From IMG/VR virus record IMGVR_UViG_3300048597_000671, positions 1 to 46,664 of that record: a stretch of DNA of 46,664 nt. One strand, written 5' to 3'. The position numbers were made by a program, and so were the translations under genes. Below the pieces are notes generated by a model. The model saw only the letters and a program-made list of their open reading frames with translations, searched no databases and was not told the origin of the DNA. Position 1 is the stretch's first letter, and every line of letters starts with the position of its first letter. Positions 17,246 through 27,197 of the stretch are shown piece by piece. This DNA comes from a virus.

Positions 17246-18451
17246 ATGCTCAAGAGCGAGTCTTTGTCCGTCGAGTGGCGGGCGATCGAAACTGTGCGCC
17301 CGTACCCGGGCAACCCTCGGATCATCCCCGAGACGGCGATCGACAAGGTGGCGGCGTCCATCCGGGAATTCGGATGGCGTCAGCCAATCGTTGTCGACGA
17401 GGGCGGGGAAATCCTCGTCGGCCATACCCGGCGCCTGGCAGCAATGCGGCTTGGCATCGCAGAGGTGCCGGTGCACGTCGCCGTCGGCCTCAGCGATGAG
17501 CAGCGTCGTGCATACCGCCTCGCCGACAATCGGACGGGCGAGGAGAGTCGCTGGGACCTGAAAGCCCTTGGCCTTGAGTTGCAGGGCCTAGGCGACGCCG
17601 GTTTCGAACTGGCGCTGCTCGGGTTCGATAGACCGGAGCTGATCAGCCTGGAGCCTCGACCCGAGCCGGCTGCCGACCCGGACGACGTGCCGCCGGCGCC
17701 GATCGAGCCTCTGACGCAGCTGGGCGACGTATGGATCCTCGGCGAGCACCGCATCATCTGTGGCGACAGCACGTCACGCGAAACCGTTGACCGCCTGCTC
17801 GCCGGCGACAAGCCGCGGCTGATGGTGACCGACCCGCCCTATGGGGTGGAATACGATGCTGACTGGCGCAATCGAGTCGTCCGCGCCAATGGCTCGAAGG
17901 TGCAGGCCCGCGCCGTCGGCAAGGTTCTGAACGATGACCGCGATGACTGGCGCGAGGCTTGGGCGCTGTTCCCCGGCAGCGTCGCCTATGTCTGGCACGC
18001 CGGGTCCCACGCGCTCGAGGTGGCTGTCAGCCTGCAGGCGGCCGGCTTCCTGATCCGCACCCAGATCATTTGGGGCAAGAACCAGCTGGTGATCAGCCGC
18101 GGGCACTATCACCCGCAGCACGAGCCGTGCTGGTACGCGGTGCGCGAGGGCGATACGGCCGGCTGGACCGGTGGGCGCAAGCAATCGACGCTCTGGTCGA
18201 TCGCCAAACCGCAGAAGTCGGAAACGGGCCACTCGACCCAGAAGCCCGTCGAGTGCATGGCCCGGCCGATCAGGAACAATTCGCGCGCCGGCGATCTAGT
18301 CTACGAGCCGTTCAGCGGGTCGGGGACCACCATCATCGCATGCGAGCAGGAGCGCAGGCGGTGCCAAGCCATCGAGCTCAGCCCCGCTTACGTCGACGTT
18401 GCGGTCCGCCGGTGGGAGAGTTTCACCGGTCGAACTGCATCTAGGGCTTAG
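17246..18451 (+). CDS. ParB-like nuclease domain fused to DNA methyltransferase
   Basis: 401-aa fusion. Residues ~8-100 are a ParB/Srx-like domain (PYPGNPRII, GWRQPIVVDEGGEILVGHTR). Residues ~165-395 are a beta-class amino-methyltransferase with GEHRIICGDS, catalytic DPPYG at 196-200, and the SAM-binding FSGSGTT at 356-362. ParB-methyltransferase fusions are common in prophages, where they modify phage DNA and may protect it from restriction. It begins the rightward late block. The target sequence cannot be told from the protein alone. Confidence 0.92.
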   Translation: MLKSESLSVEWRAIETVRPYPGNPRIIPETAIDKVAASIREFGWRQPIVVDEGGEILVGHTRRLAAMRLGIAEVPVHVAVGLSDEQRRAYRLADNRTGEESRWDLKALGLELQGLGDAGFELALLGFDRPELISLEPRPEPAADPDDVPPAPIEPLTQLGDVWILGEHRIICGDSTSRETVDRLLAGDKPRLMVTDPPYGVEYDADWRNRVVRANGSKVQARAVGKVLNDDRDDWREAWALFPGSVAYVWHAGSHALEVAVSLQAAGFLIRTQIIWGKNQLVISRGHYHPQHEPCWYAVREGDTAGWTGGRKQSTLWSIAKPQKSETGHSTQKPVECMARPIRNNSRAGDLVYEPFSGSGTTIIACEQERRRCQAIELSPAYVDVAVRRWESFTGRTASRA

Positions 18452-18774: not shown

Positions 18775-19287
18775 ATGGCCCGCAAGGCCTTCACGCCTAC
18801 CGATGAACAGCGGCGGCAGGTCGAGGCCTGGGCAGCCTATGGCATCCCGCAAGCCGAGATGTGCCTGCTGCTGTCGAACCCGGAAACGGGGAAGCCGATC
18901 TCGCTGAAGACCCTGCTCAAGGTCTTCCGCCTCGAGTTGGACACCGGGATGGTGAAGGCCAACGCGAAGGTCGGCGAGAGCCTGTTTCTCCAGGCTGTCG
19001 GGGCGCCTGCCCAATACGACGCCGCCGGGAACCAGCTTCGCGCCGAGCAACCCCGCGTCGTCTCGGCCGGGATCTTCTGGGCGAAGGTGCGGCTCGGCTG
19101 GAAGGAAACCAGCGTCCATCAGCACGAGGGCAAGAACGGCGGCGCAATCCAGATGTTCGACGCCGCGGCCCTCGCCAACATGACGGACGAACAAATTGCG
19201 GAGCTCGAAAACACCCTCGATCGACTTGCGCAGCTTACCGTCGGCGCTGTCTCAGGTCAGGGCCGAGCGGGCGCGACGGAAGGCTGA
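18775..19287 (+). CDS. Terminase small subunit
   Basis: 170-aa protein with an N-terminal helix-turn-helix (FTPTDEQRRQVEAWAAYGIPQAEMCLLL to TLLKVFRLELDTG), a middle helical oligomerisation region containing AVGAPAQYDAAGNQ and a FWAKVRLGWKET motif, and a C-terminal helix that would contact the large subunit. It recognises phage DNA for packaging. The large-subunit gene overlaps its end by 92 bases. Confidence 0.88.
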   Translation: MARKAFTPTDEQRRQVEAWAAYGIPQAEMCLLLSNPETGKPISLKTLLKVFRLELDTGMVKANAKVGESLFLQAVGAPAQYDAAGNQLRAEQPRVVSAGIFWAKVRLGWKETSVHQHEGKNGGAIQMFDAAALANMTDEQIAELENTLDRLAQLTVGAVSGQGRAGATEG

Positions 19288-20722
19288 AGCCGATCGGCGA
19301 GATGTCGAGCAGAATGCCGTCGCGATCCGGGCTCGCTGCGCAACGCTCGCCGGATTTGTGCGCGAGGCCTGGCATGTCCTCGAACCCCAGGCGGCATACG
19401 TCCATAACTGGCACATCGACGCAATCTGCCAGCACCTCGAGGCGGTGACCTGGAAGCGGATCAATCGCCTCCTGATCAACGTGCCCCCGGGCTCGATGAA
19501 GTCGCTGCTGGTGTCGGTGCTATGGCCCGCCTGGGAGTGGGGGCCATGCGGAATGCGGTCGCTGCGCACGATCACGACGGCCTTCAACGACGGCCCGGTG
19601 AAGCGCGATACTCGCAAGACCCGCGATCTGATCCTGTCGGATTGGTATCGGGCGCTCTGGCCGGAAGTCGAGCTGGTCAGAACAGGTGAAATGTCATTCG
19701 CCAACTCGGCCACAGGGTACCGCGAAGGCGTGGCCTTTGGGTCGTTGACCTCGCAACGCGGCGATCGACTGATCATCGACGACCCGCACAGCACGAAGAC
19801 CGCTGAGAGCGAGGCCGAGCGAAACGAGACGACACGGCTCTTTCGTGAAGGCGCCCTGAACCGCCTGAACAACCAGCGGGAGTCCGCGATCGTGGTAGTG
19901 ATGCAGCGGCTGCACGCCGCGGATATCTCCGGCGTCATCAAAGCGCTGGGGATGCCGTACTGCCACCTCATGCTGCCCATGGAGTTCGATCCCGAGCGGG
20001 CGTGCGAGACGGAGATCGGATTTCGGGACCCTCGAAAGGTCGATGGCGAGCTGCTCGACCCGGAGCGCTTCCCCCGCGATGTCGTCGAGGGCTTCAAGGT
20101 CCAGCAGGGCTCCTACGCCTATGCCGGCCAATACCAGCAGCGGCCGACCGCCCGCGAGGGTGGCCTCTTCAAGCGGGCTTGGTTCTCCGAGGCCGTCGCC
20201 ATCGCCCCGGTGGGCGGCCAAACGTGCCGGGCATGGGACCTCGCCGGCACCGTGAAGAAGACCGGCAATCGGCCGGACTGGACGACTGGCGTAAAGCTTC
20301 GCCGCGTCGACGGCGTATTCTTCGTCGAGCACGTCGTAAGGATCCAGGCATCGCCCGGCGACGTGCAGAAGACGATCAAGGCGACGGCGATCGCTGATGG
20401 GGTCTCCTGCGCGATCCGACTGCCGCAGGACCCGGGCCAGGCGGGCAAGGCACAGGCGGAGACGCTGATCCAGATGCTCGCCGGGTTCGACGTGAAGGCG
20501 AGGCCCGTGACTGGCGACAAGGAAACGAGGGCGCGCCCCGCCGCAGCCCAGGCCGAAGCGAAGAACGTGAAGCTGGTTCAAGGCGACTGGAACCAGACCT
20601 TCCTCGATGAAATCTGCAATTTTCCGGCGGGGACGCATGACGATCAGGTCGACGCCTTCGCCGACGCGCTCAACGAGCTCGCGCTCGGGAGCCAGTTCGA
20701 CGTCACCTATGGCGCGGTCTGA
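19196..20722 (+). CDS. terL: Terminase large subunit
   Basis: 508-aa packaging motor. The ATPase domain has Walker A VPPGSMKS (residues 96-103) and Walker B LIIDDP (192-197), with the coupling region RESAIVVVMQRLH near 230. The RNase H-like nuclease domain starts at AWDLAGT (about 348) and ends with GTHDDQVDAFADAL. There is no ATG in a sensible place; the frame opens at TTG 19196, with another TTG at 19226, both inside the small-subunit gene. Whether packaging is by cos or headful cannot be decided here. Confidence 0.95.
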   Translation: MRSSKTPSIDLRSLPSALSQVRAERARRKAEADRRDVEQNAVAIRARCATLAGFVREAWHVLEPQAAYVHNWHIDAICQHLEAVTWKRINRLLINVPPGSMKSLLVSVLWPAWEWGPCGMRSLRTITTAFNDGPVKRDTRKTRDLILSDWYRALWPEVELVRTGEMSFANSATGYREGVAFGSLTSQRGDRLIIDDPHSTKTAESEAERNETTRLFREGALNRLNNQRESAIVVVMQRLHAADISGVIKALGMPYCHLMLPMEFDPERACETEIGFRDPRKVDGELLDPERFPRDVVEGFKVQQGSYAYAGQYQQRPTAREGGLFKRAWFSEAVAIAPVGGQTCRAWDLAGTVKKTGNRPDWTTGVKLRRVDGVFFVEHVVRIQASPGDVQKTIKATAIADGVSCAIRLPQDPGQAGKAQAETLIQMLAGFDVKARPVTGDKETRARPAAAQAEAKNVKLVQGDWNQTFLDEICNFPAGTHDDQVDAFADALNELALGSQFDVTYGAV

Positions 20723-20728
20723 CGCCTG

Positions 20729-22696
20729 ATGTTGTCGTGGATCAACGATAAGCTGCAGAGCCTCGTCGAAGGGTTCAGCTGGGGCACCGGTAAGACGTCG
20801 TCGATCGGGCATGTGTTCGTGCCGTTGACGCAGCCGGAACTCATTGCCGCATACCGCGGCGACTGGCTGAGCCGCAAAGTGGTCGACGTGCCGGCCTTCG
20901 ACATGGTGCGCGAGGGGCGCGCCTGGCAGGCCGCTGACGATCAGATCGAGAAGCTCGAGGCCGGCGAGGAGCGTGTCGGCCTCCAGCAGAAGATCGGTGC
21001 CGCCCTCAAACGCGCGCGGCTCTATGGCGGCGCAGTTATCGTTATCGGCGTCGATGACGGGCAGGATCCCAGCCAGCCGCTGGCGCTTGATCGGGTGCAG
21101 GGCGGCGGTCTCAAATATCTCGCGGTGCTGAACCGGTACGAGGTCACGCCCGGCCAGATCATCCGCGATGTTGCCTCACCATATTTCGGGGAGCCCGAAG
21201 TCTACACGCTGCACGGCGGCCAGGTCGGGGCCTCATTTGTGAGGATCCACCCCTCGCGGGTGGTCCGCTTCATCGGCGCCGAGGTGCCCGACCAGTTGCT
21301 GACTGGCGAGGTATGGGGGGATTCGGTCCTCCAGGCGGTTGGCGATGCGCTGACGAACGCGACGCTCTCCGCAGACGGTATCGCGAACCTGATCACCGAG
21401 GCCAAGCTCGACGTCTATAAAATCAAGGGCTTCATGAACAACGTGTCGAATGCCGAGTATCGCTCGCGCATGCTGACCAGGTTCCGCCTGGCGAACACGT
21501 CGAAGTCGATGAATAACGCGCTCCTTCTCGATGCCGAGGAGGAATACGAGCAGAAGCAGATCAACTTCGCCAACCTAGACGATGTCGCACGCCTCATGCT
21601 GCAGATCGCATCGGGTGCTGCTGATATCCCTGCGACGCGGCTTCTGGGGCAGGCGCCTGCGGGACTGAACGCGACCGGCGATTCCGATGTGCGGAACTAC
21701 TACGACCGCATCGCCAGCGACCAGGAAATCAGCCTGCGCCCCGCCTACAAGCGCATCGACGAAGTGTTGATCCGGTCCGAGCTGGGCAATCGTCCGCCGG
21801 AAATCCATTTCACGTTCAACCCGCTCTGGCAGCTCAGCGAGACCGAACGCAGCGAAAACCGGAAGCGGGACGCCGAGAGCGACAAAATCTACGCGGAGAC
21901 GTCGTTGGTTCCGGCAGACGCGCTGGCGACTGCGGTGCAGAACAAGCTGGTCGAGGCCGGAACCTACCCGGGCCTCGAAGCCGCGCTTGCCAAGGACGAG
22001 GCTGTCACGCGCGGGCTTTCGAACGAAACCGTGAAGACCATGCTCGCGGCGAAGCAGGGCGGCGTTATGCGGCTCGAAGACATCTTCGCGCAGCTCAGTG
22101 CGGGGGGCTGGGTCGCCCCGGGCGTCACCTTCGAAAAGTGGCGCGACGACCTCGAAATCGAGGGCAGCGTTGACGACCCGAACGAAGACGGCGATATCGA
22201 CCCCATCACCGGCGAGCCGCTTCCGCCGAAGCCCGACGCCAAGGCGATCGCCGACGCGGCGCCCCGAACGCTCTATGTGAGCCGCCCGGTGCTGAACGTC
22301 GCCGAGATCGCCGCATGGGCCATAGGGCAGGGCATCGAAGACCTCGCCGACGATCTGCACGTCACGATCGCGTACTCGCGGGTCTCGCTCGACTGGATCA
22401 AGGCGGGGAACGCGACCGAATGGGGCGAGGCCGACGGCAAGCTGACCATTCCGGCCGGCGGGCCGCGCTTGGTCGAGCCCCTGGGCAATATGGGTGCGGT
22501 GCTGCTGTTCGCCTCCTCGACGCTCTGCTGGCGCCACGAAGAAATCATGCGGGCAGGGGCTTCTCACGACTGGTCGGAGTACCAGCCGCACATTTCGCTG
22601 ACGAAGACGGCGATCGAAGTTTCGAAGGTAGAGCCGTACCGCGGCAAGATTGTCCTCGGGCCGGAGCGGTTTGAGGAAGTCGATCCCGCCCGCTGA
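20729..22696 (+). CDS. Portal protein fused to an Acb1-like (anti-CBASS) 2H phosphoesterase domain
   Basis: 655-aa protein. Residues ~1-450 are a DUF1073-type portal (WGTGKTSSIGHVFVPLTQPELIAAYR-like start, RLYGGAVIVIGVDDG, AGLNATGDSDVRNYYDRI). Residues ~515-655 form a separate domain starting LYVSRPV with the two HxT/S motifs of 2H phosphoesterases: His544-Val-Thr546 (LHVTIAYS) and His621-Ile-Ser623 (QPHISLT). This arrangement and length match T4 Acb1, which cleaves the cyclic nucleotides of CBASS defence. A linker rich in Asp/Pro lies between. The first ATG follows terminase by 6 bases. The portal role is certain; the enzymatic role is by motif. Confidence 0.9.
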   Translation: MLSWINDKLQSLVEGFSWGTGKTSSIGHVFVPLTQPELIAAYRGDWLSRKVVDVPAFDMVREGRAWQAADDQIEKLEAGEERVGLQQKIGAALKRARLYGGAVIVIGVDDGQDPSQPLALDRVQGGGLKYLAVLNRYEVTPGQIIRDVASPYFGEPEVYTLHGGQVGASFVRIHPSRVVRFIGAEVPDQLLTGEVWGDSVLQAVGDALTNATLSADGIANLITEAKLDVYKIKGFMNNVSNAEYRSRMLTRFRLANTSKSMNNALLLDAEEEYEQKQINFANLDDVARLMLQIASGAADIPATRLLGQAPAGLNATGDSDVRNYYDRIASDQEISLRPAYKRIDEVLIRSELGNRPPEIHFTFNPLWQLSETERSENRKRDAESDKIYAETSLVPADALATAVQNKLVEAGTYPGLEAALAKDEAVTRGLSNETVKTMLAAKQGGVMRLEDIFAQLSAGGWVAPGVTFEKWRDDLEIEGSVDDPNEDGDIDPITGEPLPPKPDAKAIADAAPRTLYVSRPVLNVAEIAAWAIGQGIEDLADDLHVTIAYSRVSLDWIKAGNATEWGEADGKLTIPAGGPRLVEPLGNMGAVLLFASSTLCWRHEEIMRAGASHDWSEYQPHISLTKTAIEVSKVEPYRGKIVLGPERFEEVDPAR

Positions 22697-23688
22697 TGGC
22701 CACGATAAGCGAGCGCCTGCTGAACGCCGCGATCCGCCACAGGATCGGGCTGGAGCGGGTCAGCGCGGCCACCGTCCGCAAGGTGCTGGCGCTCATCAAG
22801 CGGGTAGAGCAGGACGTCTTGCGCCGGATCGCTGTGCGCGCATCTTTGGGGAGGGGAGACAACCAGCTTCAGGTTCTACTGGCTGAGCTGCGCAGCCTTT
22901 ACGATGCCGGATATCAGCATGTGCACGGTGCCGCGCGCGCCGATATCGACGCCTTGGCGCAGTACGAGGCAGCGTTTCAGGCCCACTCCCTGGGCGCCAT
23001 CTTGGGCTACCAGCTGGCGGTCCCGACTTACCCGGTGCTGATTGCGGCGGTGAATGCGCGACCCTTTCAGGGCAAGCTTTTACAGGGCTGGCTCGACGGC
23101 CTCGTCGACGGCGCTGCCGGCCGCGTGATGGATGCGATCCGCATGGGTTTTGTCGAAGGTCAGTCGACCGACGCGATGATCCGCGTGATCCGGGGTACGC
23201 GGGCCGCGGCGTATAAAGATGGCCTTATGGCGATCTCGCGCCGGGGCGCCGAGGCGATGATACGCACGGCGATCACGCATACGGCGAGCGTGGCGCAGGA
23301 ATCGGTCTACGAGGCAAATGCGGGCGTGATCGTCGGGATCGAGTGGATTTCGACGCTCGACAATAGGACAACGCCGATCTGCCAGGAGCGGGACGGCAAG
23401 GTATACGCGGTCGGAAAGGGGCCTCGGCCGCCTGCGCATATCAACTGCCGCTCGACGACCATGGCACGTTTGAAGGGTTCGGAGCCACCGCCGCGACTGA
23501 CCTATGCCGAGTGGCTGGCGAAACAGACGCCGGCGCGCCAGGACGACATCCTCGGGAAAACGCGGGGGAGGCTGTACCGGGAGGGCAAGTTGCCGATCGA
23601 CCGGTTTGTTGATCCGGCCGGCCGGATGTGGACTTTGGAGGAGCTTCGGCGGCGCGAAGGCGGTGCGTTCGAGGAGGCGGGGCTGTAA
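22696..23688 (+). CDS. Minor head/head morphogenesis protein (Mu F/SPP1 gp7-like)
   Basis: 330-aa protein with a helical N-terminal half and the conserved C-terminal part of the phage head morphogenesis family: EAMIRTAITHTASVAQESVY, GIEWISTLDNRTTPICQERDGKVY, and PPAHINCRSTT (about residues 190-255). It follows the portal directly (TGATG overlap at 22694-22698), the usual place for this protein, which is packed in few copies inside the head. The Cys and His residues at TPIC and HINC are typical. Confidence 0.9.
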   Translation: MATISERLLNAAIRHRIGLERVSAATVRKVLALIKRVEQDVLRRIAVRASLGRGDNQLQVLLAELRSLYDAGYQHVHGAARADIDALAQYEAAFQAHSLGAILGYQLAVPTYPVLIAAVNARPFQGKLLQGWLDGLVDGAAGRVMDAIRMGFVEGQSTDAMIRVIRGTRAAAYKDGLMAISRRGAEAMIRTAITHTASVAQESVYEANAGVIVGIEWISTLDNRTTPICQERDGKVYAVGKGPRPPAHINCRSTTMARLKGSEPPPRLTYAEWLAKQTPARQDDILGKTRGRLYREGKLPIDRFVDPAGRMWTLEELRRREGGAFEEAGL

Positions 23689-24255: not shown

Positions 24256-25386
24256 ATGGACTTCAACGACGCCGTGACGCTCTGCGACACGCGGACGACG
24301 GCCGACGGTTATCTCGTCGCGGACGTTCGCATCGCACGCGCCGGCATCCAGATCTACGGCGGTAAGGAAGTTGGGCGCCCGGACATGGAAACGGTGCGCG
24401 TGTACCGCCCGGAGGCCGAGGTCTTCAACAAGGATGCCATGGCGAGCTTCGCCTATCGGCCGGTGACCAACGACCACCCCGCCGAGGCGGTGAAAGCCGA
24501 AAATTGGAAGAAGCACGCCGTCGGCAATCTGAGTGGCGACGTCGCGCGCGACGGCGAGTTTCTCCGCGTTCCTATGATCGTGATGGACGCCGCCGCGATA
24601 GCCGACTGGAAGACCGGAAAGCGCGAGGTGAGCTGCGGCTACACCTGCGATCTCAAATTCGAGCCCGGCACCACGCCGAGCGGCGAAGCATACGACGCCG
24701 TCCAGACGGCGATCAGAGGCAACCACCTAGCCATCGTTCGCGCGGGCCGGGCTGGTTCGGAGTGTCGCATTGGCGACGAAACGCGCGATTTCAAAGGAGG
24801 GCCCATGGCCACGAAGACTGTAATGGTCGATGGATTCTCCATCGAAACCACCGATCAGGGCGCGCAGGCGATCGAAAAGCTGCAGAAGCTGCTTTCCGAT
24901 GCCAATACCGCGTTCACCGCGCGCGACGCCGCGCACAAGACGGCGCTGACGACCATCGAGGCAACGGTCGCCAAGCACGTCACCGATCTCGCGGCCAAGG
25001 ACGCCGAGATCGCCACGCTGAAGACCCAGCTGGCCGACGCGAAGATCACGCCCGCCAAGCTGCGCGATGCAGCGAAGGCCTATGCCGGCGTCGTCGCTGT
25101 GGCGAAGGCGCTCGCCCCGACCCTGGCCGTCACCGACGCCATGGACGAGCCCGCGATCCGCAAGGCCGTTGTCGCGGCGAAGCTCGGCGATGCAGCCAAG
25201 GACTGGACCGACGCTCAGATCGAAACCTCGTTCGCCACGCTGGCGGCGGGTGTCTCGGTCACCAAGGGCTCCGACCCGATCCGTGACGCGATCTCGGGCG
25301 GCCTCAGCGCCAATGACGCCGACAAGGCCGTCACCGACGCCCGCGCCAAATACCTGGCGGACCTCCGCGGCGAGAAGGCCGCCTAA
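24256..25386 (+). CDS. DUF2213 head maturation protease-scaffold protein
   Basis: 376-aa protein. Residues 1-175 are a DUF2213 domain (EVFNKDAMASFAYRPVTNDHP, EVSCGYTCDLKFEPG, NHLAIVRAGRAG), believed to be the prohead protease of this head type. From about 184 the sequence becomes helical and Ala/Lys/Asp rich with a coiled coil, as a scaffold would be. An internal Shine-Dalgarno and ATG begin exactly there (see 24805). Follows a hairpin and precedes decoration and capsid genes. Catalytic residues were not assigned with certainty. Confidence 0.85.
   Translation: MDFNDAVTLCDTRTTADGYLVADVRIARAGIQIYGGKEVGRPDMETVRVYRPEAEVFNKDAMASFAYRPVTNDHPAEAVKAENWKKHAVGNLSGDVARDGEFLRVPMIVMDAAAIADWKTGKREVSCGYTCDLKFEPGTTPSGEAYDAVQTAIRGNHLAIVRAGRAGSECRIGDETRDFKGGPMATKTVMVDGFSIETTDQGAQAIEKLQKLLSDANTAFTARDAAHKTALTTIEATVAKHVTDLAAKDAEIATLKTQLADAKITPAKLRDAAKAYAGVVAVAKALAPTLAVTDAMDEPAIRKAVVAAKLGDAAKDWTDAQIETSFATLAAGVSVTKGSDPIRDAISGGLSANDADKAVTDARAKYLADLRGEKAA
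24805..25386 (+). CDS. Internally initiated scaffold protein (in frame within DUF2213 gene)
   Basis: A very strong Shine-Dalgarno, AAAGGAGGG, ends 4 bases before an in-frame ATG at residue 184 of the protease gene, giving a separate 193-aa product starting MATKTVMVDG. Its content is helical: coiled coil around residues 20-90 and a C-terminal helix rich in Ala/Asp/Lys. This repeats the lambda C/Nu3 arrangement, where the scaffold is the C-terminal part of the protease gene made from its own start. Confidence 0.7.
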   Translation: MATKTVMVDGFSIETTDQGAQAIEKLQKLLSDANTAFTARDAAHKTALTTIEATVAKHVTDLAAKDAEIATLKTQLADAKITPAKLRDAAKAYAGVVAVAKALAPTLAVTDAMDEPAIRKAVVAAKLGDAAKDWTDAQIETSFATLAAGVSVTKGSDPIRDAISGGLSANDADKAVTDARAKYLADLRGEKAA

Positions 25387-26246: not shown

Positions 26247-27197
26247 ATGATCCAGCCTTTCACCGACGCGCAGGCCGCGCTGCCCTTTGTGCTCGCACAG
26301 GGCCGCAACGTCGAAGCGAAGATCTACGCCCGCCGTTACCCGACCTTCAATTACGCTCAGGTCATCCCCGTGGTGACCGAAGGCAACCCATGGTCGATCG
26401 GCACGACCTTCTTCTCGGTCGATTCCGCGGGTGAGGCGAAATTCCTCTCCGGCGCCGGCACCGATATGCCGTTCAACAAGACCACCCGGGACCAGGCATC
26501 GCACGATTTCGCGATGATCGGTTCCGGCTGGGAGTGGACGCTGGAGGAGGTCAACCAGGCCGCCCTCTATGGCATCAACCTGAGCACGCTCGATGCCATG
26601 AGCGCCGTCGACAAGGTCGAGCGCCTGCTGAACAGCATCGCGTTTGTCGGCGCGACGGAGAAGAACTGGACCGGATTCGCCAACGACGCCGCCGTGCCCC
26701 GTGCCGACGTCGGCACCCCCGGCACCTTCTGGCCGGCGAAGTCCGCTGATCAGAAGCTCACCGACGTGAATGAGGTGCTCAGCCGCGTCCGCACGCAGAC
26801 TGGTGAAGTGGAATGGGCGGACAGCCTGGCGCTTCCCCCGGATGCGTTCCGTGCCGCGGCCACCCAGCGCCTCGGCTCCGGCGACGGCCTTCTGACCGTC
26901 CTCGAGTACATCAAGAAGAACAACATCTACACGGCGGAAACGGGTCAGCCGCTCAGCATCTACCCGGTGCGCGAGCTCGCCACGGCTTCGCAGGACGGCG
27001 GCGGCCGCATGGTCGCCTACCGTCGTGACGAGGAGGTGGTTCGGTTCCACCTCCCCATGCCCCGCACGCCGCTTCAGCCGCGCCAGAAGAGCCTTATGGG
27101 CTTCGAGACGGGCATCATCGCCCGCACCGGCGGCACCGAATGGCGCCTGCCCAAGTCGGCAGCCTACGCCGACGAGGTCACCGCGCCGCCCGCCTAG
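26247..27197 (+). CDS. Major capsid protein (DUF2184 type)
   Basis: 316-aa HK97-fold capsid subunit of the DUF2184 type. Telling segments are FVLAQGRNVEAKIYARRYPTF-like start (split here), PFNKTTRDQASHDFAMIGSGWEWTLEEV, KVERLLNSIAFVG and QPLSIYPVRELA. It lies directly after the decoration gene with a good Shine-Dalgarno (AAAAGGACGA). It should be among the most abundant proteins of the virion. No sign of truncation. Confidence 0.92.
   Translation: MIQPFTDAQAALPFVLAQGRNVEAKIYARRYPTFNYAQVIPVVTEGNPWSIGTTFFSVDSAGEAKFLSGAGTDMPFNKTTRDQASHDFAMIGSGWEWTLEEVNQAALYGINLSTLDAMSAVDKVERLLNSIAFVGATEKNWTGFANDAAVPRADVGTPGTFWPAKSADQKLTDVNEVLSRVRTQTGEVEWADSLALPPDAFRAAATQRLGSGDGLLTVLEYIKKNNIYTAETGQPLSIYPVRELATASQDGGGRMVAYRRDEEVVRFHLPMPRTPLQPRQKSLMGFETGIIARTGGTEWRLPKSAAYADEVTAPPA

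Follow-up and report, generated by a model that had tools for sequence, protein, structure and literature searches.

The portal gene of the virus analyzed here encodes a portal protein fused at its C terminus to an Acb1-family 2H phosphoesterase domain, as confirmed by profile, sequence, and fold comparisons. The reading that we favor, with a probability of about two in three, is that this domain forms an optional cassette whose enzyme, a phosphodiesterase made late and attached to the portal through a flexible linker, would cut the cyclic nucleotides of host CBASS. The DNA analyzed, 46,664 bases in all, is a virus record from IMG/VR; the whole stretch is called the window below.

The portal gene ends in an Acb1-family 2H domain

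The fusion is encoded by a single open reading frame within a run of head genes (Table 1). Its portal part was assigned from the profile match, the portal fold, and the place of the gene between those for the large terminase subunit (TerL) and MuF. The PHROG profile phrog_146, labeled "portal protein," aligns with residues 6 to 650 (E value of 5.3e-145), so that this family profile already includes both the portal and the Acb1 parts. The Pfam Acb1 model (PF23474) matches residues 513 to 652 with an E value of 4.1e-28 and 98.4 bits, the curated cut-off being 27. A preliminary description of this DNA had placed an Acb1-like domain of approximately 140 residues at the end of the portal reading frame; the Pfam span, which follows a disordered linker at residues ~478 to 508, bears this out, and the starting segment LYVSRPV (from residue 515) and the HVT and HIS motifs lie exactly where they had been located.

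Table 1. Features of the head-gene region of the window and parts of the portal-Acb1 gene
Feature	Position	Strand	Evidence and remarks
Terminase small subunit	18775..19287	+	phrog_309, 1.1e-8
Terminase large subunit	19196..20722	+	phrog_38, 1.3e-76; real start probably 3' of 19196
Portal-Acb1 fusion gene, 655 aa	20729..22696	+	Single ORF, ATG at 20729, stop ends at 22696
Phage_portal_3 (PF06381) part, residues 37-386	20837..21886	+	E 1.2e-111; top fold match Pam3 portal 8hds_A
Variable linker, residues 421-508	21989..22252	+	Residues 478-508 predicted disordered, pLDDT <50; unalignable across relatives
D-A-A-P-R motif, residues 509-513, cassette start	22253..22267	+	DAxP[RK] motif comparison
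Acb1 (PF23474) 2H phosphoesterase domain, residues 513-652	22265..22684	+	Pfam, sequence and fold matches
Catalytic motif 1, HVT 544-546 (T4 H44/T46)	22358..22366	+	Alignment with T4 Acb1
Catalytic motif 2, HIS 621-623 (T4 H113/T115, S for T)	22589..22597	+	Alignment with T4 Acb1
MuF-like head morphogenesis protein	22696..23688	+	PF04233, phrog_241; ATG overlaps portal stop (TGATG)
DUF2213 head maturation protease/scaffold	24256..25386	+	PF09979 5e-57, phrog_530
Major head protein	26247..27197	+	phrog_264, 5.9e-76

The AlphaFold model of the isolated Acb1 domain (pLDDT of 93.7) adopts a 2H fold. In a Foldseek search, its best PDB match was the apo structure of FBB1 Acb1 (7t26; E value of 3.2e-7, TM scores of 0.66/0.72), which ranked first together with the postreaction FBB1 Acb1 structure 7t27 (TM scores of 0.63 to 0.72), with Escherichia coli LigT structures below them (TM scores of ~0.45 to 0.55). 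By sequence, the isolated domain matches FBB1 Acb1 7t26 with an E value of 7.5e-9, and at E values up to 1 the fusion protein gave no match to any Pfam model of LigT or 2'-5' RNA ligases. T4 and FBB1 Acb1 are distant sequence relatives of the window domain, which counts against the favored reading.

In T4 Acb1, catalysis is carried out by H44, T46, H113, and T115; Y12, W74, F107, and W147 stack on the bases, and E141 reads adenine (PMC9117128). In the alignment, where residue numbers of the T4 record run one below those of that paper, this tetrad corresponds to H544, T546, H621, and S623 of the window protein, in agreement with the motif pair proposed in the preliminary description, and the base-contacting residues Y12, F107, and E141 correspond to Y516, the aromatic W615, and E649. 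The column of the stacking residue W74 is occupied by E583; a conserved tryptophan, W565, lies nearby as a possible counterpart of W74, and FBB1 Acb1 itself has a phenylalanine at this position. The lid residue W147 is missing from the window copy, the protein ending with R655 at that column. Many fused relatives, the L009 type among them, keep a tryptophan there, and in T4 this residue is a ligand contact rather than a family-defining one. The missing W147 and the glutamate at the W74 column are points against the favored reading.

The portal fusion also occurs in Rhizobium phage RHEph04, and Acb1 was found in other contexts as well. Annotations in phages DSS3P8 and ZHS suggested a "prohead protease"-Acb1 fusion, which was rejected: these are free Acb1 genes that were misannotated, one in Edwardsiella phage vB_EpM_ZHS (L003:2116-2715), lying between the terminase and portal genes, and one in Roseobacter phage DSS3P8 (L004:4989-5441). 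A very similar Acb1 fold (TM score of 0.85 on the query) is present in BFVD entry A0A6J5LTH6, a protein of 1,134 residues from an uncultured Caudovirales phage that represents another fusion context.

Catalytic residues are kept among related portals

Related portals were gathered from viral and genome contigs by means of patterns taken solely from the portal part, so the Acb1 motif had no influence on which portals were chosen. The Acb1 domain is present in 63 of approximately 160 such portals (28 viral and 35 genome, some being the same prophage in both collections) and missing from approximately 97, two of which (L032 and L128) have a PBECR3 nuclease domain at this C-terminal position instead. 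All 63 homologues keep H544, T546, H621, and a threonine or serine at position 623, and the equivalent of T4 Y12 is kept in 62. A second set, seeded with the motif, contains one lineage of portal-Acb1 proteins (L228 and L229; 627 residues) in which the second histidine is replaced by tyrosine (QPYIS), possibly a natural inactive variant. The median dN/dS was 0.106 for the Acb1 domain and 0.17 for the portal over 52 pairs, including a few duplicates; the fused domain is under clear purifying selection.

PBECR3, found in the Acb1 slot of the genes at L032:2965-4887 and L128:3980-5776, is a Barnase-EndoU-ColicinE5/D-RelE-like nuclease domain.

The Acb1 domain comes and goes among close relatives

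L007 and L016 are approximately 90% identical on either side of a segment that comprises 441 nt of Acb1 coding sequence in the former and 18 nt in the latter, both in frame. The domain is likewise present or absent in frame between L008 and L015 (95% identity upstream) and between L014 and L017, and akin cases are provided by L018/L013, L125/L057, and L071/L137. Judged from these presence/absence pairs, Acb1 is a removable cassette that enters and leaves phages which otherwise stay nearly identical. The high-identity pairs L119/L176, L066/L250, and L242/L258 were considered as stand-alone Acb1 swaps and rejected: their similarity runs on downstream, so they document a breakpoint at the junction only and not cassette transfer.

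Parsimony on a 113-portal tree requires at least 31 changes in the presence of Acb1, and 25 of these changes are forced by well-supported branches. The Acb1 tree disagrees with the portal tree, with breakpoints at the junction, and in the identity profiles either edge of the domain shows a breakpoint, though not in the same pair. The fused Acb1 domains cluster together, separately from five free ones (support of 93), with few free proteins sampled and some of them on long branches. In its portal, the window falls together with L030, L033, L040, and Brevundimonas L112, but in its Acb1 domain with Mesorhizobium L155 and the Xanthomonas/Stenotrophomonas type; by these trees, the window gene is itself a mosaic of portal and Acb1 lineages. 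The simplest reading would be that the fusion arose once, long ago, and that the domain was then lost and reacquired many times by recombination. Such ready gain and loss is what is expected of a counterdefense function and not of a structural part.

Predicted expression within the head operon, linker, and junction

The gene for the DUF2213 maturation protease is located two genes 3' of the portal-Acb1 gene. Inside the latter, no internal promoter was seen in the window, and near the junction of its two parts there is no in-frame start preceded by a Shine-Dalgarno sequence. The production of free Acb1 from an internal translation start was rejected as a general mechanism, such a start being found near the junction in only 13 of 141 fused genes. 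Taken together, the head-operon position, the lack of an internal promoter, and the lack of a general internal start suggest that Acb1 is made late and within the portal protein. Upstream (5') of the terminase genes, the window also encodes a ParB-like domain fused to a DNA methyltransferase (positions 17246 to 18451; phrog_498, 3e-133).

In the full-length model, residues 478 to 508 are disordered, with pLDDT values below 50, indicating a loose linker between the portal and Acb1 parts. The cassette then opens with the motif DAxP[RK] in 142 of 146 fused portals; the motif occurs in none of 106 portals without Acb1 and is missing from free Acb1 proteins. It may represent a folding edge or a processing site. 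A cleavage motif common to the portal and the neighboring DUF2213 protease was considered but is not supported, since just 4 of 127 proteases contain DAxP[RK].

The portal of cyanophage Pam3 (PDB 8hds, 621 residues) has a second domain that aligns with window residues 496 to 652 at 1.8e-30. Of the 621 residues in the 8hds chain, the deposited model covers 442 and leaves out the Acb1 domain. In line with this, 8hds is not among the 50 matches listed for the Acb1 domain fold; being 45% identical, the Pam3 domain should rank first if it had been modeled. Either the tethered domain is flexible in the mature Pam3 particle, or it is not there at all, through cleavage or otherwise.

Proposed role and alternative readings

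We propose that the portal gene ends in a functional phosphodiesterase, its activity being predicted, that is carried on a flexible linker and whose likely job would be to cleave the cyclic di- and trinucleotide signals of host CBASS or of a closely related nucleotide-signaling defense. Produced with the late head genes, the enzyme would act in the infected cell during head assembly, on free portals and proheads; because the signal is small and diffusible, a tethered Acb1 would need no release. CBASS can be triggered at head assembly: a review describes an interaction between a CBASS sensor and the prohead protease of Bas13 (PMC12409349). The fused enzyme, being linked to a head protein, belongs to the stage at which some CBASS systems detect infection. 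Against this proposal, the number of portal copies may be small for an enzyme that degrades a signal. Another point against it is that SMODS cyclases exceeded the cut-off in 4 of 34 hosts of Acb1-portal prophages versus 3 of 42 in the comparison set, no clear difference, with one genome in both sets and with this one cyclase family covering part of CBASS only. Pairs of near-isogenic phages that differ in the cassette provide ready-made controls for protection by portal-linked Acb1.

In portals generally, the C terminus faces the capsid lumen, and release or injection of the Acb1 domain is possible. A lumen-side domain that is cut off or unfolded could travel with the DNA into the next host and counter CBASS there at once, and virion delivery has been suggested for 2H-portal and 2H-MuF fusions in the sections consulted of two earlier surveys (PMC5512222, PMC9503650). 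The unmodeled Pam3 domain (442 of 621 residues built in the mature portal), the lack of 8hds among the matches listed for the domain fold, the maturation protease encoded two genes 3', and the near-invariant DAxP[RK] at the junction are all consistent with such an effector. However, the portal remains outside the cell after ejection, so that release would be required; the missing Pam3 domain is equally well explained by flexibility of the low-pLDDT linker, and the scarcity of DAxP[RK] in the neighboring proteases leaves no obvious shared cleavage site. We consider this route unlikely. A shade less probable is a wider form of it, in which the portal C terminus would be an exchangeable slot for counterdefense, filled by Acb1, by a PBECR3 nuclease, or by nothing, and the Acb1 cargo would come free inside the capsid and reach the host together with the genome; if this were true, the phage would have a CBASS antidote before any phage gene expression.

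The domain might instead work on 2',3'-cyclic-phosphate RNA ends or on another defense nucleotide. Enzymes of the 2H class are catalytically diverse, an RNase reading is also offered in the section of the 2017 survey that was consulted (PMC5512222), in L032 and L128 the slot is taken by RNase-type PBECR3 domains, and neither the lid tryptophan nor the W74 column is conserved in the window; however, Acb1 is nearest by both sequence and fold, LigT and 2'-5' RNA ligase models do not match the fusion at E values up to 1, and the equivalents of T4 Y12, E141, and the tetrad, together with an F107-type aromatic residue, are retained, which makes a different substrate rather improbable. Least credible is a catalytically irrelevant extension that aids the portal or packaging: fusion to an essential head protein and the change of the second histidine to tyrosine in the lineage of L228 and L229 would fit it, but the domain is wholly missing in close relatives, and both histidines are present in 63 of 63 homologues found without selection for the motif. 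Cleavage of CBASS signals by the portal-tethered enzyme is the reading that we retain.

Comparison with known systems

With an enzyme domain fused to a portal, the window protein has the architecture of the polyvalent-protein class of putative virion-carried effectors, in which enzyme domains are fused to portal or MuF proteins. In the section consulted, a 2017 survey already reported 2H domains fused to MuF or portal proteins and suggested that they could degrade counterinvader nucleotides (PMC5512222), and the corresponding section of a 2022 survey repeats the idea of 2H fusions for oligonucleotide signaling (PMC9503650). These fusions resemble that of the window in architecture and in their proposed antisignaling role; Acb1 membership, a presence/absence cassette, a census of catalytic residues, and the missing Pam3 domain do not figure in the same sections, and the latter three are new with respect to them. 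Thus, of the interpretation in the preliminary description, the Acb1-family 2H portal fusion stands, with an intact tetrad and purifying selection, whereas its novelty does not. As both the fusion class and the hypothesis have been published, the value of the present analysis lies in making an existing prediction testable and not in a new kind of system. A full-text search of the open-access literature found no experiment on a portal-linked Acb1; the text of the 2022 Acb1 paper, in which nine extra proteins were also tested, does not mention portals (PMC9117128).

The best-studied anti-CBASS enzymes are free proteins, whereas the window enzyme forms one chain with an essential head protein. 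The Acb1 proteins of T4 and FBB1 (PMC9117128; 7t26, 7t27) share with the window domain the Pfam family, the fold, the tetrad, and the equivalents of Y12, the F107-type aromatic residue, and E141; however, they are free proteins of ~152 residues, and the window copy is fused to a portal, has serine for T115 and glutamate at the W74 column, and lacks W147. In the portal-PBECR3 fusions (L032 and L128), the portal family and the C-terminal slot are those of the window, but a predicted RNase of another fold replaces Acb1. The Pam3 portal (8hds) is the same portal-Acb1 fusion, with identities of ~42% in the portal part and 45% in the domain; unlike the window protein, it keeps the lid tryptophan, and its phage infects a cyanobacterium.
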